Shown here piece by piece: positions 11,176 through 26,176 of a stretch of 64,000 nt of DNA (position 1 is its first letter; each line of letters begins with the position of its first letter). Source of the stretch: Kordiimonas sp. SCSIO 12603 (lineage in GTDB: Bacteria > Pseudomonadota > Alphaproteobacteria > Sphingomonadales > Kordiimonadaceae). A program made the position numbers and the translations under genes. The DNA lies in the NCBI RefSeq assembly GCF_024398035.1, contig NZ_CP073748.1, positions 549,501 through 613,500 on the forward strand, written 5' to 3'. The notes beneath the pieces were generated by a model. It searched no databases and was not told the origin of the DNA. It worked only from the letters and a program-made list of their open reading frames with translations.

Positions 11176-11252
11176 GGCCCCATAGCTCAGCAGGATAGAG
11201 CGACAGATTCCTAATCTGTAGGCCACTGGTTCGAATCCAGTTGGGGTCACCA
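11176..11252 (+). tRNA. tRNA-Arg(CCT)
   Basis: Full cloverleaf. Acceptor GGCCCCA pairs with TGGGGTC (11242-11248, one G-U), discriminator A and encoded CCA. D-arm GCTC/GAGC, anticodon stem ACAGA/TCTGT with loop TTCCTAA giving anticodon CCT (11210-11212) that reads AGG, and T-arm ACTGG-TTCGAAT-CCAGT. The gene ends 5 bases before the stop codon of the convergent LysR gene. tRNA-Arg genes are common integration targets, but no integrase or repeated 3' end is present here. Confidence 0.96.
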
Positions 11253-11257
11253 CCACT

Positions 11258-12169
11258 TTATTCTCTTTCGGTAGTTTCCTTTAATATCCCCAGTATTTGC
11301 TGGATAACTGTCTCCTGCTTTGAAGATTTTTTATAGGAAGCATGCCATTTTATAGGGGTTCCTTTAGGGCCAATTGGTTTTAGGGTCAGCCCCAGTCTTT
11401 TTGCGTGAACCTGCGCGGGCCAGCGCGGCAAAATTGTAATGGCCCGGCCCGCCAGAATAAGTTCAAAAATAGCCTGGGTTTGGCCTGCAGAAATTACTTC
11501 CTTGGGGTAAATGCCTGCGGGTTTAAAAAGGGTTTCATATTCCCGCCCTGTCTCTGGCAGGGTATGATGGGTTGCATATACTTCTTCACGGAACATATCA
11601 GGTTGCAGAAAAGCTTCTCCGCAGCGTGGGTGATTTGGCGGAAGAACAGCAACAAGTTCATCGGTAAATAGCGGAGTGTTTTTCAGGTCTGGCTGCTCAA
11701 GCGTTCCGGCCATCAATACAAAATCTGCTACTTGATCATTCAAAAGGTTTGCTGGGTTTTCATCAATGGTGGGTGCGATTTCCACCATGCAGTCTGGCAG
11801 TTTCTTTTCGAGTGCATGAAGGAAAGAAGGGTACCAATCAAAACCCATATAGCAAGTAGCCCCCATCCTTAATACCATCCGGTGGCCCGTGGAAAGATGA
11901 TCCAGATCACGTTCCGCCGCAGTAGCTTCTTCAAGAATAATCTCGGCAGACCTAAGGAGCCGTTTACCCGCTTGTGTAAGCACAATAGAGTGGCTGTCCC
12001 GGTGGAAAATCTGTGTATTCACCCGGCGTTCTGCTTCTTTCATCCGGTGGCTGATGGCTGACTGTGTAAGCCCTAACTCCCTTGCGGTGGCAGAAACATT
12101 CCCCGTGGCATTCAGGCTTTTGATCATTGCCAGATGATGCAATCCCAGCCGGATCATGCTTTTCTCCAT
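11258..12169 (-). CDS. LysR-family transcriptional regulator, probable regulator of the kynurenine operon
   Basis: 303 residues. The N-terminal winged helix-turn-helix (residues ~8-65: NATGNVSATARELGLTQSAI) is followed by a periplasmic-binding-like effector domain with overall MetR-like features (ATCYMGFDWYPSFLHALEKK, ILAGRAITILPRWP). It is transcribed divergently from the tryptophan dioxygenase gene with about 95 bases between starts, the classic LysR arrangement, so it likely controls that operon in response to tryptophan, kynurenine or anthranilate. The effector is inferred, not shown. Confidence 0.88.
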   Translation of the reverse strand: MEKSMIRLGLHHLAMIKSLNATGNVSATARELGLTQSAISHRMKEAERRVNTQIFHRDSHSIVLTQAGKRLLRSAEIILEEATAAERDLDHLSTGHRMVLRMGATCYMGFDWYPSFLHALEKKLPDCMVEIAPTIDENPANLLNDQVADFVLMAGTLEQPDLKNTPLFTDELVAVLPPNHPRCGEAFLQPDMFREEVYATHHTLPETGREYETLFKPAGIYPKEVISAGQTQAIFELILAGRAITILPRWPAQVHAKRLGLTLKPIGPKGTPIKWHASYKKSSKQETVIQQILGILKETTERE

Positions 12170-12264
12170 TAGGTATTAAATAAATTCATTATATCATGCA
12201 TATTTATGAAATGCCTTCAAATGGTGCTTTTGCTATTTTTAGAGAAACTGCAGGAGTTAAGCGT
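12170..12264. promoter_or_regulatory. Divergent LysR / tryptophan dioxygenase control region
   Basis: AT-rich region between the two start codons. TTCAT (12185-12189) and ATGAA (12206-12210) form a loose dyad with a central ATGCAT at 12195-12200, consistent with a T-N11-A type LysR site but not decisive. AGGAG (12252-12256) is the ribosome site fixing the dioxygenase start at 12265. Confidence 0.4.
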
Positions 12265-13110
12265 ATGACAGAGACGGGTAAATCAGATCTTCGGGCTGTG
12301 GAAAGTGAAAATATTCACTGGGATCAGGATATCAGTTATGGCGGCTATTTGAATCTGGATAAGCTGCTTGATTGCCAGAACCCTCGTACTGATAGCCATG
12401 ATGAAATGTTGTTTCTGGTGATCCATCAGGCGTCTGAGCTATGGATGAAGCTCTGTATCCATGAGCTTGCGGCAGCCATGGAGCATATCAAAAATGATAA
12501 TTTGGGGGCATCGTTTAAGATGCTGGCGCGTATCTCCCGTATTCAGGGGCAACTGCGGCAAAGCTGGGATGTGCTTTCCACCATGACGCCGTCTGATTAT
12601 TCCAGTTTCAGGGATAAACTGGGCCAAAGTTCGGGCTTCCAATCTTTCCAGTACCGGGCCATCGAATTTGCGCTCGGCAATAAAAATGCCAAGCTTCTTG
12701 AAGTGCACCGCAGTAAGCCTGAGCGTTATGAGCCGTTAAAAGCAACGCTTGAAGCACCAAGCATTTATGATCTCTGTATTGAGCTGCTTTCAAAGCGCGG
12801 TTTTGATATCCCTGAAGAATGCCTGAACAGGGATTGGTCCCTGCCTTATGAGCCTTCGGATGCGGTGGAAGCCGCATGGGCAACGGTCTACCGTGAAACA
12901 GGTAAATATTGGGAATTATATGAGCTTGCGGAGAAGCTTGTGGATCTTGAGCACCAATTCCAGATGTGGCGTTTCAGCCATATGAAAACTGTGGAGCGGA
13001 TCATCGGATACCGCAAAGGCACGGGCGGCACAGGCGGTGTTTCTTTCCTTGTGAAAGCGCTTGATCTCCGCTTCTTCCCTGAGCTCTGGAATGTGCGTAC
13101 AGGCCTTTAG
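12265..13110 (+). CDS. kynA: Tryptophan 2,3-dioxygenase
   Basis: 281 residues, the normal bacterial length. It opens L-tryptophan to N-formylkynurenine using a heme iron. Seen: the active-site LVIHQASELWMK (His54 distal), WRFSHMKTVERIIG with the probable heme-ligating His, and the substrate-binding loop GTGGTGG near the C-terminus. The reading frame extends 23 codons upstream, but the ATG at 12265 follows AGGAG at proper spacing and matches family N-termini. First gene of an operon with kynB (8-base gap) and kynU. Confidence 0.96.
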   Translation: MTETGKSDLRAVESENIHWDQDISYGGYLNLDKLLDCQNPRTDSHDEMLFLVIHQASELWMKLCIHELAAAMEHIKNDNLGASFKMLARISRIQGQLRQSWDVLSTMTPSDYSSFRDKLGQSSGFQSFQYRAIEFALGNKNAKLLEVHRSKPERYEPLKATLEAPSIYDLCIELLSKRGFDIPEECLNRDWSLPYEPSDAVEAAWATVYRETGKYWELYELAEKLVDLEHQFQMWRFSHMKTVERIIGYRKGTGGTGGVSFLVKALDLRFFPELWNVRTGL

Positions 13111-13118
13111 GAAGTGGT

Positions 13119-13751
13119 ATGACTAAAACATATGATATCAGTCAAACCCTGAGTGCAGAAACGCCTATGTGGCCGGGGGACACACCCTTCGGTATTGAAG
13201 CGACATGGGAAATTGAAGATGGCTGTCCTGTGCTTGTGTCAAAGCTCACGCTTTCCACCCATTCAGGGGCTCATGCAGATGCGCCTTCCCACTATGATAA
13301 AGTTGGGAAAGATATCGCGGATGTACCGCTCGAAACTTATATGGGTGACTGTGTGCTTGTGTATGCTTTGGACGGCACGGGGGATATCACGCTTGAAGAA
13401 CTCAAGCAGCAACTGGATAAGGCTGGAACGCTTGAGCGTGTATTGATCCGAACTTTTGAAACATTCCCACACCACCGCTGGCCTGAAGGGTTCCGTGCAG
13501 TGGGTGCCGAGCTTATCCAGTATTTGGCCGAACAGGGGTGCCGTCTTATCGGTGTGGATACCCCGTCCCTTGATCCTGAAACATCAAAAGATCTGCACGC
13601 CCATATGGCGGTGAAGGAAAACGGGATGGCCATCCTTGAAGGCCTTGTTTTAGACGATGTGCCTGAGGGTGAATATGAACTTATCGCGCTGCCGCTTAAG
13701 ATAAAAGGGGCGGACGCCAGCCCTGTTCGCGCTGTTTTGAGGAGCAAATAA
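13119..13751 (+). CDS. kynB: Kynurenine formamidase KynB
   Basis: 210 residues of the cyclase/KynB metal-dependent family, which hydrolyses N-formylkynurenine to kynurenine and formate. The metal/catalytic motif HSGAHADAPSH occupies residues 48-58 (pattern HxGxHxDxPxH), and MWPGDTPF near the N-terminus is typical of KynB. It lies 8 bases after the dioxygenase, and its TAA is immediately followed by the kynU ATG, so translational coupling is likely. Confidence 0.95.
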   Translation: MTKTYDISQTLSAETPMWPGDTPFGIEATWEIEDGCPVLVSKLTLSTHSGAHADAPSHYDKVGKDIADVPLETYMGDCVLVYALDGTGDITLEELKQQLDKAGTLERVLIRTFETFPHHRWPEGFRAVGAELIQYLAEQGCRLIGVDTPSLDPETSKDLHAHMAVKENGMAILEGLVLDDVPEGEYELIALPLKIKGADASPVRAVLRSK

Positions 13752-14996
13752 ATGGCTGAAAAACTCACACTTGATGCCCTGAAGGCCATGGATGCGGCGG
13801 ATCCTCTCAAAGAATATGCAGACAGGTTCCTTATTCCTGAGGGCGTTATTTATATGAACGGTAATTCGCTTGGCCCGCTCACGAAAGATGCGAAAAAGCG
13901 GATGGCAAGTGCTGTAGAAAATGAATGGGGCAATGAGCTGATCCGCGGCTGGAACACAGCCGGATGGTACGACATGTCCCACCGTGTGGGGAATAAAATC
14001 GCCAAGTTGATCGGCGCGAGTGAAGGCGAGGTTGTTCTCGCTGACAGCACGTCTGTAAATCTTTTTAAAACCCTTGTTTCCGCATTGCACCTGAACCCCG
14101 GCCGCAGAAAAATCATCAGCGAGAAGGGTAATTTCCCGACGGACCTATACATTATTGATGGTGTGCGTCAGTTAACCGGCGAGCACTATACCGTTGAGAC
14201 CCATGAGCGTGCAGACGTTATGGATGCGATTGGTGATGATACTGCTGTGGTGCTGCTCACCCATGTGCATTATGTCTCTGGTGAGATATTTCCAATGGCT
14301 GAAATCACGGAAAAAGCCCATGCATGCGGTGCTTTGACGGTATGGGACTTGAGCCATTCGGTAGGTGCTGTGGAAACTGAACTGAATGCAACAAAAGCTG
14401 ATTTTGCGGTGGGCTGCGGCTACAAGCACTTAAATGGTGGCCCCGGTGCGCCAGCCTTTTTGTTTGCAGCCAAACGCCATCATGGGGCGATGAAAAATCC
14501 CATCAGCGGGTGGTTCAGTCACAAGGCTCCGTTTCAGTTTGTGGATGAGTTTGAGCCAACAGAAGGCATCGGCCGTATGCTTACAGGCACTACCGCCGTG
14601 CTGGGTGGTTCCGCGCTTGAGGCAGGGCTTGATCTCATGTTGGAAACTGAAAATAGCGTGCGGTTCCAGAAGCAGCAGAAGCTTAACGCTACCTTCCAAG
14701 CGCTTGTATTGCAGGAATGCGGTGGGTTGGGCCTTGAAGTGGTATCACCCCAAGATGCGTCTGACCGTGGCGCGCATATCTCTTTCAGGCACAATGATGG
14801 TTACGCCATCATGCAGAACCTGATTGATATGGGTGTGATTGGTGATTTCCGTGCGCCAGATAGGATGCGGTTTGGTTTCTCCCCGCTCTTTATGTCGTTT
14901 GAAAGCCTTTATCATGCGGTGGAAATTTTGCGGGATATTCTTAAAAGCAAATCCTATCAGCAGGAAAAATACCAGACAGTGAATAAGGTGACTTAA
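13752..14996 (+). CDS. kynU: Kynureninase
   Basis: 414 residues. This PLP enzyme cleaves kynurenine to anthranilate and alanine. Seen: YMNGNSLGPLT near residue 35, DSTSVNLFK (phosphate-binding region), VWDLSHSVGA with the PLP-ring Asp, and the Schiff-base lysine K225 in GCGYKHLNGGPGAPAF. It abuts kynB with no gap and closes the operon at a strong terminator. With the neighbouring CoA ligase and monooxygenase/reductase, its product anthranilate is probably degraded rather than released. Confidence 0.96.
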   Translation: MAEKLTLDALKAMDAADPLKEYADRFLIPEGVIYMNGNSLGPLTKDAKKRMASAVENEWGNELIRGWNTAGWYDMSHRVGNKIAKLIGASEGEVVLADSTSVNLFKTLVSALHLNPGRRKIISEKGNFPTDLYIIDGVRQLTGEHYTVETHERADVMDAIGDDTAVVLLTHVHYVSGEIFPMAEITEKAHACGALTVWDLSHSVGAVETELNATKADFAVGCGYKHLNGGPGAPAFLFAAKRHHGAMKNPISGWFSHKAPFQFVDEFEPTEGIGRMLTGTTAVLGGSALEAGLDLMLETENSVRFQKQQKLNATFQALVLQECGGLGLEVVSPQDASDRGAHISFRHNDGYAIMQNLIDMGVIGDFRAPDRMRFGFSPLFMSFESLYHAVEILRDILKSKSYQQEKYQTVNKVT

Positions 14997-15014
14997 GCTC
15001 CGCCTTATCACGTG

Positions 15015-15043
15015 AAAAAGGGCGCCGAACGCGCCCTTTTTTT
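15015..15043. terminator. Bidirectional terminator between kynU and the monooxygenase/reductase gene
   Basis: AAAAA, GGGCGC (15020-15025), loop CGAAC, GCGCCC (15031-15036), TTTTTTT. The symmetric A/T flanks serve both convergent genes. Confidence 0.92.
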
Positions 15044-17426
15044 ATGCCTGATCTTCAATGTTTTTTGCAAAGCTGTGATGCCGTTTTGGCCTTGCTTTGT
15101 GCTGCCATTCAAGTTGCTGTATGCGCGCTTTAGGCTGTACGGAATAAGCTTGCGCCTGCCCGGCTTGATACTGTTTTTCCCAGTCATCATTCTCTAGCTT
15201 TACGCCGTACCAGGCCGCCGATTGCCGTACTATGAAGGGATTCCACATAAAGGGCCTGCCCATAGCAACCAGATCGGCCCTGCGGGTGTGAAGAAGGGTG
15301 TTGATCTGCCCAGCATCCGTGATAGCGCCAACCGCCATGGTTGCCACTTTTGGTACATTGCGGATTGCCTCAGAAAAACCGGCTTGAAACATGCGGCCAT
15401 AAACAGGCTTCTGGTCTGGCACTGTTTGCCCGGCTGATACATCGATCAAATCGCAACCCGCTTCAGAAAATGCTTCTGCGATAGCGAAGGTATCGGCCTC
15501 TGAGATGCCGCCTTCTTTCCAGTCACTGGCTGATATACGTACAGACATTGGTTTTTCCTCGGGCCATACCGTGCGCATTGCTTTGAATAGTTGAAGGGGG
15601 AACCGCATCCGGTTTTCTATGTTGCCGCCATAATTGTCCGTACGGGTGTTGGTAAGCGGTGACAGGAAACTGGCGAGCAGATACCCGTGGGCACAGTGAA
15701 GCTCAAGCATATCAAACCCAGCACGGTTCGCCCGCTCTGCTGCCTGCACGAAATCAGCTGTGATGGCCGCCATGCCGGCTTCACCAAGTTCCTTGGGTGT
15801 CTGGCTGATGCCATCAAAATACGGAATAGGAGACGCGGAAACTAGCGGCCAGTTTTTGCTCTCATCTTCAATGGGGTAATCCATTTTCTCCCACCCTAAC
15901 TGGGTGGAGCCTTTCCTGCCTGAATGCCCCAGCTGCATACAGATTTTGGTGCCTGTGTTTTCGTGCACAAAATCCACAATCCGCTTCCACCCGGCTTCTT
16001 GCTCGTCTGACCACATGCCGGGGCAACCAAGGGTGATGCGGGCATCAGGCGATGGACAGGTCATTTCTGTGAACATCATACCCATGCCGCCACGCGCCGC
16101 GCCGCTGTAATGCACAAAATGCCAGTCGGTCAGATTGCCGTTTTCATCAGCGCTATATTGCGCCATGGGGGACATAACCGTGCGGTTTCTCAGTTCCATA
16201 TCCCGTAATTTGAATTTGGTGAACATGGGCGTAGGGCGACTTTCGCGGTAATCATAACCGCTTTCACGGAAATACCGCTCATACCATTCGGTGTCTGCGG
16301 CTTCGATAAAGGCCGGGTCCCGCACGATCAAATTATCATATGTTACTGATTTTGCCCGGCACATTACCACCATGGCGAACTGGTAGGGGTCCATATCCCA
16401 CGAGCGGTCCATATGCTCGAACCATGCAAGTGATACATCCGCATTATGCTGTACGATCTGGGCTGGCACTCTGCGGCTTTTATCATAAGCGGCAAAGGCT
16501 GCTTCATGCCCATCTGTCTCAAGGTGTTTGATCACTGCTTCATAAAGGCCGATGGCACAGTCCATTGCCAGCTTGGAACCGGAACCGATTGAGAAATGAG
16601 CTGATGCTTTTGCGTCTCCCAAAATCACCATTTTGCCCACAGACCAGTTGTTACAGAAAATGCGAGGGAACTGTCGCCAATGGGACCGGTTCAGTATCAG
16701 AGGGTGGCCTTGAAGTTCGTCTGCAAAAAGAGCTTCCAGTTTTTTAGCGCTGCCTTCTTCATCAAATTCCTCAAACCCGTGCGCCTGCCAGCAGGCATCA
16801 GACATTTCAAAAATCCAGGTAGAGTGCTTGTCTTCATACTGGTAGGTGTGTGCGCAAATGGCGCCGTGTTCGGTCTCTTTGAAGAAATACGTAAAATCAG
16901 AAAGCGGGCGGGTGGAGCCCATCCAGCAGAAGCGGTTGCTTTTCATGGAAACGCTGACATCAAAGCCTTCTGGTCCTTTGTGTGCTTCGCGTACGGCAGA
17001 GCCAATGCCGTCGGATACAAGAATCATATCAGAATCAGCAAACCGAGTCTCAATTGTGGCTGGATCAATGGTTTCCTCGAAATACATTTTCACACCCAGC
17101 TCGCGGCAGCGCTCTTGAAATACACTCAGGAGATGCACGCGGGATGTGCCGCAAAAGCCATTACCTTCACAGGTCATCATCTCGCCCTTGAAGGCGATAT
17201 TGATATCATCCCAATAAGCAAACTCTTCCCGCATGCGGGTGTAGGTCTCTTTGTCCCGGCTTTCATATTCATCAAGGGAAGCATCAGAGAATACAACGCC
17301 AAAACCAAAGGTATCGTCGGCGCTGTTTCGCTCATAAAGCTCAATATCCCAGTTGGGGCGTGCTTTTTTAGTGAGTAACGCGAAATAGAGCCCACCCGGC
17401 CCGCCACCGATAATGGAGATTTTCAC
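15042..17426 (-). CDS. Two-domain anthraniloyl-CoA (2-aminobenzoyl-CoA) monooxygenase/reductase
   Basis: 794 residues fusing two flavoprotein modules. Residues 1-~390 are an FAD hydroxylase of the salicylyl-CoA 5-hydroxylase type (IIGGGPGGLYFALL; VVILGDAKASAHFS-like FAD site MVILGDAKASAHFS). Residues ~400-770 form an Old Yellow Enzyme barrel (NRTVMSPMAQYSA, QLGHSGRKGS, ELHCAHGYLLASFLSPLTN, AMGRPFMWNP). This architecture is known from Azoarcus evansii 2-aminobenzoyl-CoA monooxygenase/reductase, which hydroxylates and then reduces the ring, ending aromaticity without ring cleavage by a dioxygenase. The kynurenine operon beside it and the CoA ligase support this substrate; salicylyl-CoA is the main alternative. 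Confidence 0.9.
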   Translation of the reverse strand: MKISIIGGGPGGLYFALLTKKARPNWDIELYERNSADDTFGFGVVFSDASLDEYESRDKETYTRMREEFAYWDDINIAFKGEMMTCEGNGFCGTSRVHLLSVFQERCRELGVKMYFEETIDPATIETRFADSDMILVSDGIGSAVREAHKGPEGFDVSVSMKSNRFCWMGSTRPLSDFTYFFKETEHGAICAHTYQYEDKHSTWIFEMSDACWQAHGFEEFDEEGSAKKLEALFADELQGHPLILNRSHWRQFPRIFCNNWSVGKMVILGDAKASAHFSIGSGSKLAMDCAIGLYEAVIKHLETDGHEAAFAAYDKSRRVPAQIVQHNADVSLAWFEHMDRSWDMDPYQFAMVVMCRAKSVTYDNLIVRDPAFIEAADTEWYERYFRESGYDYRESRPTPMFTKFKLRDMELRNRTVMSPMAQYSADENGNLTDWHFVHYSGAARGGMGMMFTEMTCPSPDARITLGCPGMWSDEQEAGWKRIVDFVHENTGTKICMQLGHSGRKGSTQLGWEKMDYPIEDESKNWPLVSASPIPYFDGISQTPKELGEAGMAAITADFVQAAERANRAGFDMLELHCAHGYLLASFLSPLTNTRTDNYGGNIENRMRFPLQLFKAMRTVWPEEKPMSVRISASDWKEGGISEADTFAIAEAFSEAGCDLIDVSAGQTVPDQKPVYGRMFQAGFSEAIRNVPKVATMAVGAITDAGQINTLLHTRRADLVAMGRPFMWNPFIVRQSAAWYGVKLENDDWEKQYQAGQAQAYSVQPKARIQQLEWQHKARPKRHHSFAKNIEDQA

Positions 17427-17467
17427 CGTTTATTCTCCCTGCGTCATTAAAGTGAGTACGCTTTTCC

Positions 17468-17482
17468 TACGTACAAGACGTA
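17468..17482. promoter_or_regulatory. Inverted repeat TACGT-N5-ACGTA in the divergent catabolic promoter region
   Basis: Perfect 5-bp arms with a 5-bp spacer, about 40 bases upstream of the monooxygenase/reductase start. It may be part of the control region recognised by the MarR protein encoded in the adjacent operon; this is inferred from position only. Confidence 0.35.
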
Positions 17483-17506
17483 CCGTAGATTACAGGAAAA
17501 AACAAT

Positions 17507-17520
17507 GTTTAAGCTTAAAC
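17507..17520. promoter_or_regulatory. 14-bp perfect palindrome, candidate MarR operator
   Basis: GTTTAAGCTTAAAC reads identically on both strands and lies about midway between the divergent starts of the monooxygenase/reductase and the SDR-MarR operon. Size and symmetry fit a MarR dimer site. The MarR gene is second in the operon it would control, suggesting autoregulation. Confidence 0.5.
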
Positions 17521-17626
17521 TAAAAATAAAACGTAGTGCGATTAGTGAATAAATTTATTGAATTATAAGGGTAAATTGACAGCTATTATTATTTTATATA
17601 TAAAATATATGAAAATGGAGGGGTTC

Positions 17627-18376
17627 GTGGCGCTAGATGAAAAACATGTACTGGTAACAGGTGGTGGTACAGGTATTGGTGCTGCTATTGCGCAGTCTCT
17701 CGCACATGCAGGTGCCAGCGTTACTATTGCCAGCCGTAACCTGGACCGCCTTCAAGAACTTGCCTCCACCAGCGATAATATCTCAGCCATTTCCCTTGAC
17801 GTGACAAATGCCGGTCATGTCGCTGAAGTATTCGCGGGTCTTGGTGATGTAGATATCCTGATCAATAATGCGGGTGCTGCATTAACGGCGCCTTTCCATA
17901 AAATGTCCGAAGAAATCTGGTCGCAGATGCTCGGTGTGAATCTCACTGGCACTTTCCTCTGTACACAGGCAGCACTTGCACCCATGAAAATGAAAAACTG
18001 GGGCCGAATTATAAATATTGCCAGCACGGCGGCGCACAAAGGCTATGCTTATACTTCGGCTTACTGTGCGGCCAAGCACGGTGTGGTGGGGATGACCAAG
18101 GCTTTAGCGCTTGAGCTTGCGGGCACAGGTATCACTGCCAACTGTGTGTGCCCTGGTTTTACAGATACTCAAATTGTGGCGGATGCTATTGAGAATATCA
18201 CTGCAAAAACCGGGCGCAGTGAAGAAGAAGCCCTCGGTGAACTGGTGAAAGGTAACCCGCAAAAGCGCCTTATTGAACCGGAAGAAGTCGCAAATGCGGT
18301 ACTGTGGCTTTGCCGTGATGAAAGCAGGTCTATCACCGGGCAAAGCATTAATGTTGCAGGTGGGGAAGTGATGTGA
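17627..18376 (+). CDS. Short-chain dehydrogenase/reductase of the anthraniloyl-CoA block
   Basis: 249 residues, classical SDR: TGGGTGIG cofactor motif at residues ~10-17, NNAG near 84, catalytic Ser, then YTSAYCAAKHG with the Tyr-x-x-x-Lys pair. The reading frame extends to 17558, but GTG at 17627 follows GGAGGGG and begins right before the first beta strand. Likely oxidises or reduces a hydroxyacyl-CoA/oxo-cyclohexenyl-CoA intermediate after the ring-reducing step. First gene of a seven-gene run; its stop overlaps the MarR start (TGATG). Confidence 0.88.
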   Translation: MALDEKHVLVTGGGTGIGAAIAQSLAHAGASVTIASRNLDRLQELASTSDNISAISLDVTNAGHVAEVFAGLGDVDILINNAGAALTAPFHKMSEEIWSQMLGVNLTGTFLCTQAALAPMKMKNWGRIINIASTAAHKGYAYTSAYCAAKHGVVGMTKALALELAGTGITANCVCPGFTDTQIVADAIENITAKTGRSEEEALGELVKGNPQKRLIEPEEVANAVLWLCRDESRSITGQSINVAGGEVM

Positions 18377-18861
18377 TGGAACAGCCGCGCACCCGCCGCC
18401 GGGAAAAACAGAATCTGCGTATCTGGCTGAAGATGCTATCATCCACCGGTAAGGTGGAAAAACATGTGCGTTCGCGCCTCAGGGAAGATTTTGAAACCAC
18501 GCTCCCTCGGTTTGATGTGCTGGCGGAACTTTACCGTCGCCCAAACGGTGTAACTATGGGGGAACTATCCAGCATGTTGATGGTTTCCAACGGCAACCTC
18601 ACGGGGCTCGCGAACCGGTTGCAGCAAGATGGTTTGATCCTGAAGGCACCAATGCCGACAGACAAGCGTACGCACCTTCTTTACATCACCCGTGAAGGTA
18701 AAAGCCGGTTTGAAGAAATGGCCAAGGAACATGAAACATGGGTGGGTGAGTTTTTCAAAAACTTCAAAGATGAAGAACTGGCACAGTTGCTGACCTTATT
18801 ATCCAAAATTGAGTATGCCGCCGACATGGGGGGCATCGAGGAGACAGACGATGAGCTTTGA
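18376..18861 (+). CDS. MarR-family transcriptional regulator
   Basis: 161 residues from the ATG overlapping the SDR stop. The winged helix is visible: [40 protein letters not shown] and the wing [19 protein letters not shown]. MarR proteins of aromatic acyl-CoA pathways usually repress until an aryl-CoA binds; anthraniloyl-CoA is the likely ligand here by context. The palindromes at 17468-17520 are candidate sites. Confidence 0.9.
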
Positions 18862-19666
18862 TCCGCAAACTTATAAGCCGGAACATTTTCTGTGGGAATT
18901 TGAAGATGGTATTGCGACAGTAAGGCTTGATCGCCCCGAGCGGAAAAACCCCCTAACATTCCAGTCTTATGCGGAACTAAGGGACACATTCCGCGCCCTT
19001 ACCTACGTTAAGGAAGTGAAGGTTGTGGTGTTTGCGCCGAACGGCGGTAACTTCAGTTCTGGCGGTGATGTGCATGATATTATCGGCCCGCTTGTGGGCA
19101 TGGATATGACCGAACTGATGGATTTCACCCGCATGACAGGTGATTTGGTGAAAGCGATCCGTAGTTGCCCGCAGCCGGTTATTGCGGCAGTAGACGGTAT
19201 CTCAGCGGGTGCAGGTGCTATCATTCCAATGTGTGCTGACCTCCGCGTTTCCTCAGAGGCTTCGAAAACATATTTCCTCTTTAACCGGGTTGGTCTTGCA
19301 GGCTGTGATATGGGTGCATGTGCGATCTTGCCGCGTATCATCGGGCAGGGCCGAGCGTCACAGCTTCTCTATACCGGGAAAGGCATGTCCCCTGATGAAG
19401 GCTTGGTGTGGGGGTATTTCAATGACGTGGTGGAAGCAGGCGAATTGATGGAAGCAGCTTATAAGCTGGCGCGTTCAATCGCCAGTGGCCCAACCTTTGC
19501 CAATAGTATGACCAAGAACCAGTTGAATATGGAATGGGATATGAGCCTTGATACAGCTATTGAGGCAGAAGCACAGGCGCAGGCCATTTGCATGCAAACC
19601 AAGGATTTTGAGCGCGCCTACCACGCCTTTGTTGCCAAAGAAAAACCGGTGTTTGAAGGGAACTGA
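18851..19666 (+). CDS. Enoyl-CoA hydratase/isomerase (crotonase) family protein
   Basis: 271 residues. The crotonase fold is clear: [20 protein letters not shown], the oxyanion-hole segment [13 protein letters not shown], and [20 protein letters not shown]. The ATG at 18851 is within the end of marR (11-base overlap) and has GAGGAG upstream, so the longer frame starting at 18809 is not used. It likely hydrates or opens a CoA-bound alicyclic intermediate formed from anthraniloyl-CoA. The two acidic residues of classical enoyl-CoA hydratase are not obvious, so an isomerase or ring hydrolase role is possible. Confidence 0.88.
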
Positions 19667-19668
19667 TC

Positions 19669-20850
19669 ATGGCGGATATGAGCTTTCTCAACTGGCCGTT
19701 TCTTGAAGACCACCACCGTGATTTAGCGCGTCGTTTGGATACATGGTGCCAGGAAGTATTGGTGCCATTTGTAGAAAGCCGAGATGTACATCACGACCTG
19801 GACGGCAGCTGCAAGGCGATCCTTACCCTTCTGGCGGAAGGTGGTTTCACCCGCTATGCAGTGCCGAAAGCTTATGGCGGTGTTCATGATAGCCTTGATG
19901 TACGCTCCTTATGCCTTATCCGGATGACACTTGCTTATTATTCCGGGCTTGCAGATTTTGTTTTTGCCATGCAGGGGCTGGGTTCTGGCACAATCTCTCT
20001 ATACGGTTCTGAGGAAACCAAAGCACATTATCTCACTGGTGTCGGTGAAGGCAGGCTGTGCGCAGCTTTTGCGCTTACGGAGCCGGAATCTGGTTCAGAT
20101 GTGGCGGCAACTCGTACGGCCGCGGAACTAGACGGTGATCACTATATCATTAACGGAGCAAAAACTTTTATCTCGAACGGTGGTATTGCAGACCAATATG
20201 TAGTGTTCGCGCGCACTGGCCCCGGTGAGGGGGCACGCGGTCTGACAGCTTTTGTGCTCGATGCTGATACCGAAGGGCTTGATACCAGTGAGCGTATTGA
20301 TGTGATAGCACCGCATCCGCTTGCCACCCTTAAATTCAACAATTGCCGCGTGCCAGCAAGGAACCAACTGGGCGAGTTGGGCGGTGGTTTTAAGGCAGCG
20401 ATGGCGACCCTTGATATTTTCCGTTCTACTGTGGGTGCTGCGGCCCTTGGGTTTGCGCGCCGCGCGCTTGATGAAGCTGTGACGCGGGCAGATGGCCGCG
20501 AACTGTTTGGCGCGCCGCTCCATAATCTTCAGCTGGTGCAGGCCATGATCGGTGAAAGCGCCCTTGATATTGATGCGTCAGCACTGCTGATTTTCCGCGC
20601 TGCATGGGCGAAAGACAGCGGCCAGCCAAGGGTAACTCGTGAGGCAGCTATGGCGAAATTGCACGCCACTGATCAGGCCCAGCAGGTGATTGACCGGGCG
20701 GTACAGATCTTTGGCGGCATGGGTGTGGTCTCCGGCGTGAAGGTGGAGGAACTATACCGGGAAATCCGAGCGCTCCGCATTTATGAAGGGGCATCAGAAG
20801 TGCAGAAAGTGGTGATTGCCCGCGCTCATATTGCTGAAGCGGCAGGATAG
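19669..20850 (+). CDS. Acyl-CoA dehydrogenase
   Basis: 393 residues, full-length FAD enzyme. Seen: [20 protein letters not shown] (flavin/substrate region), [20 protein letters not shown], and the C-terminal [13 protein letters not shown] with [17 protein letters not shown] carrying the usual catalytic/FAD residues. Starts 2 bases after the crotonase stop. In context it probably dehydrogenates a reduced cyclohexane/cyclohexene carboxyl-CoA intermediate. Confidence 0.92.
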
Positions 20851-20854
20851 AATT

Positions 20855-21295
20855 ATGGCTGGTCGGATATTCACACGCAAACAATTGATCCGCCACGGGC
20901 ATACAGACCCTGCGGGTATTGTCTATTACCCGCGCTATTTTGAAATGATCAATGATACCGTTGAGGATTTCTTCCGCGAAGCTATGGAGCGCCCTTTCGG
21001 GCAGATGCATACGGTTGAGAAGATCGGCGTGCCCACGGTGCAAATTGCGGTGGAGTTCCAGAAACCCAGTTACTGCGATGATATGCTTGATATGGGATTG
21101 GTGATCGAGCGGCTTGGTAAATCATCTGCGACCATCTGTGTGAAAGCGCTGTGTGGCGGTGAAGTGCGCCTGTCCGCTATCCTTACAATTGTGCAGACCA
21201 ATCTTGAGACCATGAAATCCATACCGTTCAGCGGCCCCATGCGGGTGATGCTTTCTGAGTATGTGGTGGATACCGGCCAGTCGGAGACGATATGA
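20855..21295 (+). CDS. 4-hydroxybenzoyl-CoA-type hotdog thioesterase
   Basis: 146 residues. The N-terminal RHGHTDPAGIVYYPRYFEM contains the Asp of the 4HBT-I active site. The frame starts earlier inside the dehydrogenase gene, but the ATG at 20855, four bases after that gene's stop, matches family length. It likely hydrolyses an aromatic or alicyclic acyl-CoA, either as an overflow valve releasing CoA from dead-end products or as a pathway step. Overlaps ridA by ATGA. Confidence 0.87.
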   Translation: MAGRIFTRKQLIRHGHTDPAGIVYYPRYFEMINDTVEDFFREAMERPFGQMHTVEKIGVPTVQIAVEFQKPSYCDDMLDMGLVIERLGKSSATICVKALCGGEVRLSAILTIVQTNLETMKSIPFSGPMRVMLSEYVVDTGQSETI

Positions 21296-21690
21296 TGAAA
21301 ACGCTTTTGCCAGAAGGTTGGGTGCGCCCCAAAGGTTATTCAAATGGTATCAAAGCCTCAGGTGATATGGTGTTTGTTGCAGGCGTTGTGGGCTGGGATG
21401 AGCATGAAGAATTCCAGTCTGATGATCTTGTTGAGCAGTTTCGGCAGGTGCTTCTGAACACCAAAGCCATCATGGCTGAAGGTGGCGCCGGGCCTGAACA
21501 CATGGCGCGCATGACTTGGTATATAACCGACAAACAGGAATATCTCACGCGGCTCCGTGAAGTGGGGCAGACATACCGGGATGTGATGGGGAAAAACTAT
21601 CCCGTTATGGCGTGCGTTGAGGTCTCCGGCCTTATGGAAGACCGAGCAAAGATTGAAATCGAAACCACTTGTGTAATCAGCGCCGATTAA
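21292..21690 (+). CDS. RidA-family (YjgF/YER057c) enamine/imine deaminase-like protein
   Basis: 132 residues: GYSNGIKASGDMVFVAGVVGWD, ARMTWYITDKQEYL and a C-terminal ACVEVSGLMEDRAKIEIETT with the conserved Glu; the canonical Arg of RidA (normally in a CVEVARLP-like stretch) appears as SGLMED, so it belongs to a divergent subgroup. RidA proteins hydrolyse reactive enamines/imines to ketones and ammonia. Its place in the operon suggests it removes the amino group from 2-amino-5-oxocyclohexene-carboxyl-CoA or a derivative. That assignment is inference. Confidence 0.85.
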   Translation: MMKTLLPEGWVRPKGYSNGIKASGDMVFVAGVVGWDEHEEFQSDDLVEQFRQVLLNTKAIMAEGGAGPEHMARMTWYITDKQEYLTRLREVGQTYRDVMGKNYPVMACVEVSGLMEDRAKIEIETTCVISAD

Positions 21691-21694
21691 TCGG
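21683..21694. repeat. 12-bp perfect palindrome over the ridA stop codon
   Basis: CCGATTAATCGG spans the TAA stop of ridA. It may simply be a short hairpin or an internal regulatory site before the ligase gene; no T-tract of terminator quality follows. Confidence 0.3.
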
Positions 21695-21737
21695 TTTGCT
21701 GGGTAAGTAACTGTACCGAGTAGCTTCTGAGAATTAC

Positions 21738-21752
21738 ACCGCATGATGCGGT
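21738..21752. promoter_or_regulatory. Inverted repeat directly upstream of the CoA ligase gene
   Basis: ACCGCA (21738-21743), TGA, TGCGGT (21747-21752): perfect 6-bp arms with a 3-base spacer, followed at once by the GGGGAG ribosome site. Could act as an operator or an RNA hairpin affecting translation of the ligase. Confidence 0.4.
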
Positions 21753-21766
21753 AGGGGAGTTAGCCA

Positions 21767-23386
21767 ATGTCATATACGGGACATACCGATACTTTCACGC
21801 AGGATAATCTGCCGCCTAAGGACCAGTGGCCAGATTTGGTGCTGGATGAGGCTAAATTCCAGTATCCGGAAAAACTGAATGCGGCTTATGAGCTAACGGA
21901 CCGTATGGTGGAAAAAGGTTTCGGAGACCGCATCGCCCTTATCGGGCACGGGCGCATGCGCACCTATAAAGAACTGGCGGACTGGTCGAACCGTATCGCT
22001 AATACGCTGGTGGATGATTTTGGCGTGAAACCCGGAAACCGTGTGCTTATTCGTTCGCAGAATAATCCGGCTATGGTGGCGGTGTGGCTTGCGGTTACCA
22101 AAGTGGGCGCAGTGGCAGTGAACACCATGCCGATGCTGAGGGCTGGTGAGCTTACGAAGATTGTTGAGAAAGCAGAGATTAAACTGGCGCTCTGCGAAAT
22201 GCGTATCATTGAAGAAATGAACCTCTGCCACGCAGCATCAGAAATGCTTGAAAGCGTGATCAGCTTTGACGGTATGACAGGGCACGAGGGCCAGTTGGAC
22301 CGATTAGCGCTCTGCAAGCCTGTAACATTTAATGCTGTAGAAACTGCAAGTGATGATGTAGCGCTTCTGGGCTTTACCTCAGGCACAACAGGCGCACCGA
22401 AAGCGACCATGCATTTCCACCGGGACCTGCTGATCATCGCGGACGGGTATGCGGATGAAGTGCTTCAAGTGAAGGAAAGTGATGTATTTATCGGCTCCCC
22501 GCCGCTTGCCTTCACCTTTGGGCTTGGCGGTTTGGCGGTTTTCCCGCTCCGGTTTGGGGCATCTGCGGTGCTGCTTGAAGATGCATCTCCACTCAATCTC
22601 ATCAAATATATCGAGCAGTATCAGGCTACCATCTGCTTTACGGCACCAACAGCATACCGGGTGATGCTTTCTGAGAAAGACAGTGCTTACCAGATGCGCT
22701 CATTAAGGGTTGCAGTATCAGCGGGGGAAACCCTGTCTGCGGATGTTTATAACCTGTGGCACAGCCAAATGAAGGTGCCGATCGTAGACGGTATTGGCGC
22801 CACAGAACTGCTGCATATCTTTATCTCCAACCGTATGGAGGATGCCAAGCCCGGCTGCACGGGCATGTGCGTCTCTGGTTACAGTGCAAAAATCATGGAT
22901 GAAAACTTCCTTGAAGTGCCAAATGGCACTGTAGGCAGGCTTGTAGTAAAGGGGCCAACCGGCTGCCGCTATATGGCGGATGATCGCCAGCAGAAATATG
23001 TGAAAGACGGCTGGAATATCACAGGGGATGCTTTTACCCGCAGTGATGATGGTTGTTTCACCTATGTGGCGCGGATGGATGATATGATCCAGTCAGGGGG
23101 GTATAATATCTCTGGCCCTGAGGTGGAAGAAGCGATCTTAAAGCATGAAGCGGTGGCAGAATGTGCGGTCGTGGGTGCACCGGATGAAGAACGCGGTCAG
23201 CTTGTAGAAGCACACATCGTTTTAAAGGGTGGTGTTGAGGCAAAGGATGCTCTTGTCTGCGATATCCAGACCTTCGTGAAAAACACCATCGCACCCTATA
23301 AATACCCGCGCTCGGTAAAATTCCGAGACAGTTTGCCGAAAACCCAGTCTGGCAAACTGCAGCGCTTTAAGCTGCGGGAAGAATAA
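21767..23386 (+). CDS. Benzoate/2-aminobenzoate-CoA ligase family AMP-forming enzyme
   Basis: 539 residues, adenylate-forming superfamily. P-loop GFTSGTTGAPKATMHFHRDL, SPPLAFTFGLGG, DGIGATELLHIFIS (A5-type region), GDAFTRSDDG and the C-terminal lysine in LPKTQSGKLQRFKL. The MHFHRD and AFTFGLGGL segments resemble benzoate- and 2-aminobenzoate-CoA ligases rather than acetyl-CoA synthetase. Activates anthranilate made by KynU, feeding the monooxygenase/reductase. 76 bases after ridA with its own ribosome site and inverted repeat; last gene of the block. Confidence 0.9.
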   Translation: MSYTGHTDTFTQDNLPPKDQWPDLVLDEAKFQYPEKLNAAYELTDRMVEKGFGDRIALIGHGRMRTYKELADWSNRIANTLVDDFGVKPGNRVLIRSQNNPAMVAVWLAVTKVGAVAVNTMPMLRAGELTKIVEKAEIKLALCEMRIIEEMNLCHAASEMLESVISFDGMTGHEGQLDRLALCKPVTFNAVETASDDVALLGFTSGTTGAPKATMHFHRDLLIIADGYADEVLQVKESDVFIGSPPLAFTFGLGGLAVFPLRFGASAVLLEDASPLNLIKYIEQYQATICFTAPTAYRVMLSEKDSAYQMRSLRVAVSAGETLSADVYNLWHSQMKVPIVDGIGATELLHIFISNRMEDAKPGCTGMCVSGYSAKIMDENFLEVPNGTVGRLVVKGPTGCRYMADDRQQKYVKDGWNITGDAFTRSDDGCFTYVARMDDMIQSGGYNISGPEVEEAILKHEAVAECAVVGAPDEERGQLVEAHIVLKGGVEAKDALVCDIQTFVKNTIAPYKYPRSVKFRDSLPKTQSGKLQRFKLREE

Positions 23387-23421: not shown

Positions 23422-23928
23422 TTATTGGGTTAGCCGTTTGATGGCTTCGGTTTTCACAAAATCAACGGCAGGTGCCAGTTTATCTAGGGCTGCGCCTTCA
23501 GTGCCGTTGGCGATTTCATCGAAGGTTACTTTAGTCCCGTCTTCTGTTGAGGTGAGGGTGATGGTCCACACCACATTCACAGCCATTTCCTGCAAGGGGC
23601 CAAAAGGCGCATTCATGCGGAGCGTGCTGCCGGGTTTTACATAAATCACCGTACCGTGGGAAACTGAGCCGCCATCCCAGTCTTCGCGCCAAAGGCCACC
23701 GGCTTGAAGATCCAGCGACAGGTTTTCTGAACGGCCAGAGTAGGTATGATCCGGGTGCCACCAGGTTTCTGGCTTAATAAGCCGTGCCCACAGGTCTTCC
23801 GCTGACATGCTGGAGGTTGCTTCTTGTTTCAGTACATAGCGATCTGATTTTGCTTCCACAATTTCAGCTGCCGCCGCCGTACTTAGGCTTGATGCCATAA
23901 GCGTGGATAGGATTAATGTTTTTTTCAT
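23422..23928 (-). CDS. Exported SRPBCC (START/AHSA1-like) domain protein
   Basis: 168 residues with a clear signal peptide (KKTLILSTLMASSLSTAAAA). The mature part has the helix-grip pattern: AEDLWARLIKPETWWHPDHT, LDLQAGGLWREDW, then WTITLTSTEDGTKVTFDEI. Such proteins bind hydrophobic small molecules; the ligand is unknown. GGGAGG precedes the ATG. It diverges from the acylase gene. Confidence 0.8.
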   Translation of the reverse strand: MKKTLILSTLMASSLSTAAAAEIVEAKSDRYVLKQEATSSMSAEDLWARLIKPETWWHPDHTYSGRSENLSLDLQAGGLWREDWDGGSVSHGTVIYVKPGSTLRMNAPFGPLQEMAVNVVWTITLTSTEDGTKVTFDEIANGTEGAALDKLAPAVDFVKTEAIKRLTQ

Positions 23929-24052
23929 CGCTGCCTCCCGTTTTATGAGGAGCTTAGCTCAAGTGATGGTGATGATCTATATTTTCCCCTTGTTTTTCTT
24001 CCTCTCTTGGCGCGCTATATCATTTGCGGGAGCATTAAAAACGGGGGCAGGT

Positions 24053-26176
24053 ATGCTGAAGAAAATCCTTGGAGCGGTTTTGATCCTATTCGTTGTGGTG
24101 TATGCGGGCTTTGCTCTTACCATGCGCAGTTCTGTTGACCCGGCTTCTTTCTCTGACCTTCACGAGAAATACGATGTCCGTATTATTCGGGATGCTTACG
24201 GCGTGCCGCATATTTATGGTGACCGGGATATAGATGTGGCCTTTGGTCTTGCGTTCGCCCATGCGGAAGATGATTTTGCCACCATGCAGGATGTGCTTCT
24301 TGCTACTCGCGGCAAGCTAGCGACCCTTAAAGGGGTGGAAGCTTCAAAAACCGATTATCTGATCCAGATGATGCGGGTTTGGGACGTTGTAAACGCAGGT
24401 TATGATACCCGCTTGAGCGCTGAGGCACGTGCGCACGCGGAAGCTTATGCGGACGGCCTTAATTATTTTGCTTCTGAAAACCGTGGGCTTATATCGCCTT
24501 ATCTTCTTCCTGTTACAGGTAAGGATGTTGTGGCAGGCTTCACCTTTAAAACCCCACTGTTTTACGGCTTTGATCAGGCAGTGGCTGCGGCGGCAGATGG
24601 CAGCTACGGCACTGGGCTTGATAAATCCTCAGCGCTTGAACCAACGGATAAGCCTCAGCCTGATATTGGCAGCCAAGGCATAGCGGTGGCGCCTTCTCGC
24701 TCAGCGGACGGGCACACGCGCTTGCTGGTGAATTCCCACCAGCCGCTCACGGGCCCTGTGGCCTGGTATGAAGCACGGGTGAAATCGAACGAAGGCTGGG
24801 ATATGGCTGGCAGTACCTTCCCCGGTTCGCCTGTTATCCTTCATGGGTACGGCCCTACGCTCGGGTGGTCAAACACGGTGAATAAGCCGGATTTGGTTGA
24901 TGTTTATAAGCTGGTGATAAACCCTGATAACCCTAATCAATACAAGCTTGATGGTGAGTGGCGTGATTTTGAAATCCGCACTGCTGAGATTGAAATTTTT
25001 TTCCTTGGCCCTATCCGCTGGACGTTTGAAGAGCCTATTTATTATTCAGAACATGGCCCCGTATTCAGGAACAAAAAAGGGGCGTTTGCGCTCCGCTGGG
25101 CGGGGATGGATGAAGTGCGTACGCTTGATATGAATATCCAGCTTAATAAAGCCCGTACGCAGGCAGATTTTGAAGCCGCCCTCGGTATGGGGGCAATGCC
25201 CAGCATCAATTATATTTATGCGGATAAGGACGGCAATATCGCCCATTATTATAACGCTATGATGCCGAAGCGTATTGAAGGTGTGGACTGGCGCGGTTTG
25301 CTGCCGGGGGACCGCTCTGATCTTATCTGGCGGGAATATCACCCGTTCAGCAAAACACCGCGCACGGTGAACCCGCCTTCAGGCTTTGTTTTCAACGCGA
25401 ATAACACACCGTTTGTTGCAAGTGTGGGCGAAGGGCAGGCGCAGCCCGGTGATTTCACGCCGAGCATGGGCATTGAAACTGGTATGACGAACCGAGCGCT
25501 GATGATCAGGGACCTGTTTGGTGCGGATGAGAGCATCACGGCTGAGGAATTCAAAACATACAAATATAACAACAGTTACCACAGGGATTCAGTGGCGGCA
25601 AAAGTGTTGGCTGAGGTGTTGGCGCTTCAACTCCTCGAAGGCAGTGAAGTAGCTGAGGCTCAGAAAATACTCGCCAAATGGGATCTTTCCACCGGGAAAG
25701 AAAACCGCCAGGCAGCTCTTGGTGTGTTAACCGCCACACCGTTTATTCTTGCGGAAATGCGCGGTGAACCAAAACCTGATGTGCGTGAAACCTTTGAAGG
25801 TGTGGTGGCTTTCATCAGTAAATTTTACGGTGTTTTGAACCCAGAGTGGGGGGAAGTGAGCAAACTGGTGCGCGGTGATTTCACATGGCCTATATCTGGC
25901 GCCCCTGATGTGCTGAGGGCCGTTTATAGTGATATCAACGCAGACACAGGAAAATTGAAAGCTACAGCGGGTGATAGTTATATCATGTTTGTTGATTGGG
26001 CGCCGGACGGCACTGTGAATTCAACCAGTATTCATAATTTTGGTAGTGCGACCCTTGATGGCAGCTCTCCTCATTATGCGGATCAGGCACCGCTGTTTAC
26101 GGCAGAGAAAGAGCGTAAGCTCCCCATGACGCTTGAAGCACTTGAGGCAGAGAAAACATCCGACCGAAGGCTTTAA
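24053..26176 (+). CDS. Penicillin acylase/acyl-homoserine lactone acylase family hydrolase
   Basis: 707 residues from the ATG before a membrane/signal segment (KKILGAVLILFVVVYAGFAL). It is made as one chain and should self-cleave before the N-terminal nucleophile: DIGSQGIAVAPSRSADG places the candidate at S207. Most relatives have Ser-Asn here, this one Ser-Gln. NSHQPLTGP, YGPTLGWSNT and the C-terminal HNFGSATLDGSSPHYADQ fit the family. The longer frame from 23903 would overlap the divergent gene and is unlikely. Likely periplasmic amide hydrolase; N-acyl homoserine lactone or another acyl amide are possible substrates. Confidence 0.88.
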   Translation: MLKKILGAVLILFVVVYAGFALTMRSSVDPASFSDLHEKYDVRIIRDAYGVPHIYGDRDIDVAFGLAFAHAEDDFATMQDVLLATRGKLATLKGVEASKTDYLIQMMRVWDVVNAGYDTRLSAEARAHAEAYADGLNYFASENRGLISPYLLPVTGKDVVAGFTFKTPLFYGFDQAVAAAADGSYGTGLDKSSALEPTDKPQPDIGSQGIAVAPSRSADGHTRLLVNSHQPLTGPVAWYEARVKSNEGWDMAGSTFPGSPVILHGYGPTLGWSNTVNKPDLVDVYKLVINPDNPNQYKLDGEWRDFEIRTAEIEIFFLGPIRWTFEEPIYYSEHGPVFRNKKGAFALRWAGMDEVRTLDMNIQLNKARTQADFEAALGMGAMPSINYIYADKDGNIAHYYNAMMPKRIEGVDWRGLLPGDRSDLIWREYHPFSKTPRTVNPPSGFVFNANNTPFVASVGEGQAQPGDFTPSMGIETGMTNRALMIRDLFGADESITAEEFKTYKYNNSYHRDSVAAKVLAEVLALQLLEGSEVAEAQKILAKWDLSTGKENRQAALGVLTATPFILAEMRGEPKPDVRETFEGVVAFISKFYGVLNPEWGEVSKLVRGDFTWPISGAPDVLRAVYSDINADTGKLKATAGDSYIMFVDWAPDGTVNSTSIHNFGSATLDGSSPHYADQAPLFTAEKERKLPMTLEALEAEKTSDRRL

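Follow-up and report, generated by a model that had tools for sequence, protein, structure and literature searches.

A block of 12 genes at positions 11258-23386 of the Kordiimonas sp. SCSIO 12603 stretch shown above (64,000 nucleotides, hereafter the window, from a genome of 3.85 Mb on one contig) is best explained as a module for tryptophan catabolism, a reading of the block as a whole to which we give a probability of about 80%. It is highly probable that the route runs through anthraniloyl-CoA. Judged by sequence, the lower part of the block is an ordinary 2-aminobenzoyl-CoA (abm) cluster with kynurenine-pathway (kyn) genes adjoining it. The pathway itself is already known, and the new part is the subtype of Rid protein found here, the residue it carries at the catalytic arginine position, and its coupling to abmA, the gene for a fused flavin monooxygenase/Old Yellow Enzyme (OYE) reductase.

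All 12 genes are open frames whose family matches in profile searches lie far above chance, so that each gene named in a preliminary description of this DNA is present, as follows:

11258..12169, minus strand: LysR-type regulator (PF03466, PF00126; position)
12265..13110, plus strand: kynA, tryptophan 2,3-dioxygenase (TIGR03036, 402.2 bits, cut-off 390.7; start context)
13119..13751, plus strand: kynB, arylformamidase (TIGR03035, 268.4 bits, cut-off 223.05)
13752..14996, plus strand: kynU, kynureninase (TIGR01814, 267.2 bits, cut-off 246.4)
15042..17426, minus strand: abmA-like fused flavin monooxygenase/OYE reductase of the 2-aminobenzoyl-CoA monooxygenase/reductase type (GTG start; PF01494 and PF00724)
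17427..17614, no strand: abmA/SDR divergent promoter region, with palindromes at 17507-17520 (14 bp) and 17590-17607 (18 bp)
17615..18376, plus strand: SDR dehydrogenase, FabG/3-hydroxybutyrate dehydrogenase-like (PF13561, PF00106; TIGR01963, 233.3 bits, below the cut-off of 307)
18373..18861, plus strand: MarR regulator (PF01047)
18851..19666, plus strand: crotonase-fold enzyme PRK08258 (NF006107, 455.3 bits, cut-off 330)
19669..20850, plus strand: acyl-CoA dehydrogenase, ACAD (PF00441, PF02770, PF02771)
20855..21295, plus strand: 4HBT/hotdog thioesterase, optional in such clusters (PF13279)
21292..21690, plus strand: Rid-family (L-PSP) protein of the Arg-less subtype, Met106 at the catalytic Arg position (PF01042)
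21767..23386, plus strand: aryl-CoA ligase, probably an anthranilate-CoA ligase (PF00501, AMP-binding)

Since kynA, kynB and kynU all exceed curated equivalog cut-offs, the kynurenine pathway to anthranilate is complete by family. The starts given for kynA, SDR, crotonase and thioesterase are likely the true ones rather than the first start codons (the kynA, SDR and thioesterase frames are open from 12196, 17558 and 20816 respectively). By strand the block falls into four units, namely lysR (minus), kynABU (plus), abmA (minus) and SDR-marR-crotonase-ACAD-thioesterase-Rid-ligase (plus), with lysR divergent from kynA and abmA convergent with kynU. A single operon is thus rejected, and the wording 'in one unit' used in the preliminary description was too strong. 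From its position the LysR protein is probably the regulator of the kyn genes. Both palindromes in the abmA/SDR gap are perfect; in first-order Markov shuffles (n = 5000) an 18-bp palindrome arose in 0.6% and a 14-bp palindrome in 5.0%, and the two are only suggestive as candidate operators of MarR.

To place the block in context we surveyed 289 alphaproteobacterial genomes, which are related to one another, so that the statistics below ignore descent. There abmA was found in 56 genomes and kynA in 45, and both occurred together in 34, against 8.7 expected; the 56 include three genomes matched over the OYE half only, without which the overlap with kynA is 33/53. This coupling leads us to reject a chance neighbourhood of kyn and abm genes. 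Specifically, abmA was present in 30 of the 39 genomes with both kynA and kynU (7.6 expected), 3-hydroxyanthranilate dioxygenase (3-HAO) in 13, and a gene resembling antA, for anthranilate 1,2-dioxygenase, in one, where its score was below the TIGR03228 cut-off. These numbers suggest that, in the sampled Alphaproteobacteria, kynA and kynU are usually accompanied by abmA and not by an antA-type dioxygenase. Pairing genomes with and without abmA within each of 20 families gave, for kynA, 7 concordant pairs, none reversed and 13 tied, several of the partners without abmA having been selected among kynA-holding rows, which biases against concordance.

Several observations weigh against so simple a picture, beginning with the neglect of descent in these counts. 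Among the same 39 genomes, 11 hold both abmA and 3-HAO, two hold 3-HAO without abmA, and seven have neither of these nor an antA-like gene. Also, abm and kyn genes are reported together in Cupriavidus metallidurans, yet the species failed to grow on anthranilate, according to the accessible part of that account (PMC8879955).

The later steps of the route bring in the Rid protein. In the portion of the literature account available (PMC4433059), imine hydrolysis by RidA depends on an arginine bound to the ligand carboxylate, in TdcF this residue hydrogen-bonds the ligand carboxylate, and Rid4-7 proteins are without it, their function being given as unknown as of 2015. The window protein has Met106 at this site and so lacks the conserved Arg that marks the imine hydrolases of the RidA/Rid1-3 kind. 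The same methionine occupies the position in 46 of the 46 scoreable Rid-like frames of loci L002-L075, that of the Arthrobacter sp. Rue61a plasmid included, a count that leaves out one further Rid-like frame that is incomplete. Paralogues in the window's own genome have Arg (L078) and Trp (L080) there, these being the two that could be aligned, with L081 left out.

The distribution of this subtype can be followed with a profile built from 18 cluster Rid proteins, taking matches above 150 bits in the 289 genomes as positive; 53 genomes score above this value and the next lower scores 126 bits, leaving a clear gap. The subtype is found in 48 of the 56 genomes with abmA but in only 5 of the 233 without it. 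It also follows abmA more closely than it follows kynA (48/56 vs 31/45), and of 20 within-family contrasts 16 were concordant, none reversed and 4 tied, the member without abmA having been picked by hand in each pair. Reading the residue at the Arg position in 42 stretches (four genes taken twice) never gave Arg; it was Met except in genome G196 and in two genomes without abmA. The preliminary description had listed RidA without a role; its presence is borne out by the PF01042 match, and the comparisons now make Rid one of the leading candidates for a later step.

We suggest that the Rid protein may be a dedicated deaminase of the ring enamine CoA-thioester, for which we put the odds at just short of even. 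A substrate that is a CoA thioester has no free carboxylate to bind, which would explain why Met replaces Arg. More tentatively, the Arg-less Met proteins tied to abmA may form a distinct catabolic subfamily of CoA-thioester enamine deaminases serving the first step after dearomatisation. The evidence is not all on one side. In all likelihood Rid proteins without the arginine do not hydrolyse imines, in the judgement of the authors of PMC4433059 as far as its available text goes, and the hand-picking noted above qualifies the within-family contrasts. Eight of the 56 genomes with abmA lack the subtype, although some of these are fragmented or have partial matches, and G196, which counts as abmA-positive by a partial match only, has Thr at the Arg position. 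The five genomes that hold the subtype without abmA (L116-L120) have Met in three cases and Ile in two, and no abm cluster was seen around their Rid genes within the 15-16 kb fetched.

The most serious alternative, which is quite possible even if we put it below an even chance, is that deamination is spontaneous and that Rid acts in damage control, clearing enamine or imine leaked by AbmA or by kynureninase, a PLP (pyridoxal phosphate) enzyme. RidA proteins forestall enamine and imine damage around PLP enzymes, according to the part of PMC4433059 available, and the AbmA product is described as unstable in acid in the corresponding part of PMC3534580. The gene is also found next to kynA/kynU and away from abmA in two genomes (loci L112 and L113). 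In G154, Rid is grouped with kynA, kynU and the genes from SDR to ligase, abmA being 1.8 Mb away; G196 has Rid next to kynA and kynU, its partial abmA match being on another contig. However, the arginine needed for the known Rid activity is replaced by Met in all of the scoreable frames, and the subtype keeps closer to abmA than to kynA, both of which speak against damage control.

A different question is whether the lower block acts on anthraniloyl-CoA at all. It is improbable, in our view, that its main substrate is salicylyl-CoA or some other 2-substituted benzoyl-CoA, with the proximity of kyn genes incidental, but some evidence does point that way. The fusion of FAD monooxygenase and OYE, a single 794-aa frame with PF01494 and PF00724, belongs to a family that NCBI labels 'salicylyl-CoA 5-hydroxylase', and it scores 970.7 bits against NF006101, 'bifunctional salicylyl-CoA 5-hydroxylase/oxidoreductase', under the curated cut-off of 1078. 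The ligase likewise scores 371.3 bits against the NCBIfam benzoate-CoA ligase family, just under the cut-off of 375.25. The kyn and abm halves are separate units with separate regulators, and kyn genes adjoin only a minority of abmA loci (see below). Against salicylyl-CoA stand the genome-wide coupling of abmA with kynA, its coupling with a Rid type whose family includes deaminases, the lack of a match to gentisate dioxygenase in the window genome (TIGR02272, 1e-3), and the closest solved structure to the ligase, which is the anthranilate-CoA ligase 4wv3 (6.5e-83). Two features of aerobic abm clusters are present in the block: the fused monooxygenase/OYE and, adjacent to it, the aryl-CoA ligase, crotonase, ACAD, SDR, MarR and Rid genes.

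The neighbourhood of abmA was compared by scanning genome contigs, which gave 71 abmA loci, two of them (L069 and L070) matching the reductase half only. By record title these come from Alpha- and Gammaproteobacteria, a Burkholderiaceae metagenome-assembled genome, Streptomyces, Rubrobacter, Armatimonadetes and Eisenbacteria. Where the flanks extend 9 kb or more to either side (47 loci), the neighbours are crotonase in 42, ligase in 38, SDR in 36, MarR in 36, ACAD in 35, Rid in 35 and thioesterase in 14; calls were made by an identity threshold to the window proteins, so divergent homologues score as absent. In Kordiimonas laminariae (L002) the AbmA-like protein is 98% identical and the stretch has the same 12 genes, so that the organism of the window is probably closely related to that species. 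The kyn genes are a less regular part of this picture. Their joining to abm, pointed out in the preliminary description, is not peculiar to the window and recurs in other lineages: kynA/kynU lie within the fetched stretch in 13 of the 71 loci, including Kordiimonas, Roseobacteraceae, Bradyrhizobium and Eisenbacteria, and short stretches may conceal others. Matches to 'kynB' in L007, L015 and L051, at 27-28% identity, are probably other cyclases. In the surveyed Alphaproteobacteria, no more than 10 kb separate kynA and abmA in 6 of the 34 genomes with both, window included, a lower bound as many assemblies are fragmented. On a quick tree of AbmA (67 rows, being the window and 66 of the 71 loci, five with matches shorter than 2150 bp having been dropped) the kyn label changes 10 times, with 9 changes forced by starred branches; shuffled labels gave a mean of 13.0, and 9 of 500 shuffles were as low. 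Ten changes imply that the joining of kyn and abm genes has been gained or lost many times.

The pathway we propose can be laid out as follows. By family function, KynA, KynB and KynU would convert L-tryptophan to anthranilate and alanine, the ligase would activate anthranilate to anthraniloyl-CoA, and the AbmA-like fusion would hydroxylate and reduce this to 2-amino-5-oxocyclohex-1-ene-1-carbonyl-CoA. Rid may then hydrolyse the enamine to 2,5-dioxocyclohexane-1-carbonyl-CoA with release of ammonia, after which the crotonase might open the ring of this beta-keto-thioester to 4-oxopimeloyl-CoA in the manner of BadI, itself a crotonase. ACAD and SDR could carry out steps of the beta-oxidation type to acetyl-CoA and a C5 acid, with a thiolase from elsewhere completing the chain, and the thioesterase, where present, could release CoA from stalled esters. 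LysR would control the kyn half and MarR the abm half. The sequence from tryptophan through anthranilate and anthraniloyl-CoA to an alicyclic CoA thioester, proposed in the preliminary description, is consistent with the gene content, the conservation of the cluster and the genome-wide co-occurrence, and its choice of SDR, crotonase and dehydrogenase as later-step candidates agrees with their recurrence as cluster neighbours.

The crotonase as ring-opening enzyme is a more doubtful assignment, made by analogy, and the order of the remaining later steps is guesswork. BadI is a 2-ketocyclohexanecarboxyl-CoA hydrolase from another pathway, as the accessible part of PMC12521323 has it. The Asp of the GCDMGA motif is kept in 57 of 58 rows of the cluster family, with a gap in the other, and aligns with an Asp of PaaG (4fzw); as regards the two-glutamate enoyl-CoA hydratases, the observation is the conservation of this PaaG-aligned Asp, in an alignment that includes no hydratase with both Glu residues. 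PRK08258 occurs in 46 of the 56 genomes with abmA and in none of 24 genomes without it, the latter chosen and not random. The ten abmA genomes without this crotonase, some of them fragmented or partial, are a point against the proposed scheme.

Metabolite data from Arthrobacter sp. Rue61a growing on anthranilate bear on the Rid step. Anthraniloyl-CoA and the acyl-CoA of a C7H8O4 acid were detected, the latter only in anthranilate-grown cells, and the authors read it as possibly cyclohexanedione-carboxyl-CoA (PMC3534580, accessible part). The computed acid formula of the AbmA product after hydrolytic deamination is also C7H8O4, matching this ester. Formic acid was, however, used to quench the samples, and the AbmA product is not stable at pH values under 5 (same source and portion); together these mean that the ester could be an artefact. 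It is this acid extraction that made us lower the odds for both the Rid step and the Rid subfamily, and raise those for damage control. A C7H7NO3 ester resembling hydroxyanthraniloyl-CoA was also reported in the accessible text of the same study.

This last ester would fit a re-aromatisation, in which ACAD oxidises the dione to gentisyl-CoA, or the route passes through 5-hydroxyanthraniloyl-CoA, and a thioesterase then liberates the acid for cleavage by a cupin dioxygenase. A small cupin gene does occur in the clusters of Ruegeria pomeroyi and the Rue61a plasmid, and in the latter it is accompanied by genes for a thioesterase and a hydrolase of the FAH family. We nevertheless regard this scheme as very improbable for the window: no cupin is among the 12 block genes, its genome has no gentisate dioxygenase match, and the thioesterase is present in a minority of loci, as counted above.

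That the block contains no classical ring-cleaving dioxygenase, as first described, is correct for its 12 genes. Genome-wide there is no match to the antA-type anthranilate 1,2-dioxygenase alpha subunit (TIGR03228) at 1e-100, other anthranilate dioxygenase types not having been sought, and none in the window genome (G000) to PF06052 at 1e-10, for the 3-HAO of the kynurenine route to NAD. This genome-wide absence applies to the antA, 3-HAO and gentisate types, not to the extradiol and homogentisate families. Elsewhere in the genome there is one Rieske alpha-type protein, which looks unrelated, and a single intradiol-type dioxygenase match (L077 4491-5153) with a twin-arginine-like N-terminus.

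The closest parallel in gene order is plasmid 1 of Paracoccus denitrificans PD1222 (L075), where the order SDR-MarR-crotonase-ACAD-thioesterase-Rid-ligase is identical; identities to the window are 63% for ligase, 53% for Rid and 46% for AbmA. It differs in the placing of abmA, which precedes these genes on their own strand, in having no annotated kyn gene within its 26 kb, and in being flanked at either end by genes for ABC transporters. On the Ruegeria pomeroyi DSS-3 megaplasmid (L074) kynA is divergent from abmA, followed by SDR, MarR, crotonase, ACAD, ligase and Rid, but an alpha/beta hydrolase is found where KynB would be, the annotation of the stretch includes no kynU, and a cupin replaces the thioesterase. 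Plasmid pAL1 of Arthrobacter sp. Rue61a (L073) has a Met-type Rid nearby, an AbmA 44% and a ligase 52% identical to those of the window, and differs by PaaX-type regulators, FAH-family and cupin genes, and by anthranilate that derives from quinaldine and not from tryptophan. The Rue61a ligase shown to make anthraniloyl-CoA (PMC3534580, part available) is equated by position with the gene directly before abmA. The FAH-family hydrolase and small cupin lie beside Rid, thioesterase and ligase at 3481-7988 of L073, and such extra genes suggest that the lower pathway of some Actinomycetota is a different one.

The abm gene clusters of Azoarcus evansii (Schuhle et al. 2001) reportedly also include genes for a MarR-like regulator and for a 'translation inhibitor' (Rid). 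Compared by pathway description and not by sequence, the ligase and the fused monooxygenase/reductase are common to Azoarcus evansii and the window, while in the window kyn genes adjoin. The aerobic 2-aminobenzoyl-CoA pathway, whose first two steps were described in that species, consists of the ligase and the fused enzyme followed by beta-oxidation, in the accessible part of the review PMC4539516, and abm genes are noted in Cupriavidus genomes in those of PMC8879955 and PMC2842291. GapMind left out the tryptophan route via anthraniloyl-CoA monooxygenase/reductase for lack of knowledge, according to the portion of PMC9007349 available. Our literature search, in which subscription literature was mostly not covered, found no published account of adjacent kyn-abm clusters.

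Around the block, a tRNA-Arg(CCT) at 11176-11252 ends 5 bases before its lysR end, a common kind of integration site; this tRNA gene is shared by the K. laminariae stretch (L002) but absent from that of K. sediminis (L003). A mobile-island origin was considered but is not supported: although the tRNA adjoins the block, a search of the window for a repeat of its 3' end gave nothing, and there was no integrase among the window proteins scanned, which comprise part of the window's open reading frames. Beyond the other end lies a 757-aa penicillin-amidase family protein (23903-26176), divergent from an SRPBCC-like protein (23422-23928).

For the steps after dearomatisation of anthraniloyl-CoA, these comparisons single out Rid, crotonase, SDR and ACAD as the recurring genes, and they give an orphan kind of Rid protein a testable role at the level of a single residue. 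If this role is true, Arg-less Rid proteins would fill the first step after dearomatisation, and the pathway they serve is apparently the one with which the kynurenine pathway is chiefly paired among the Alphaproteobacteria sampled.

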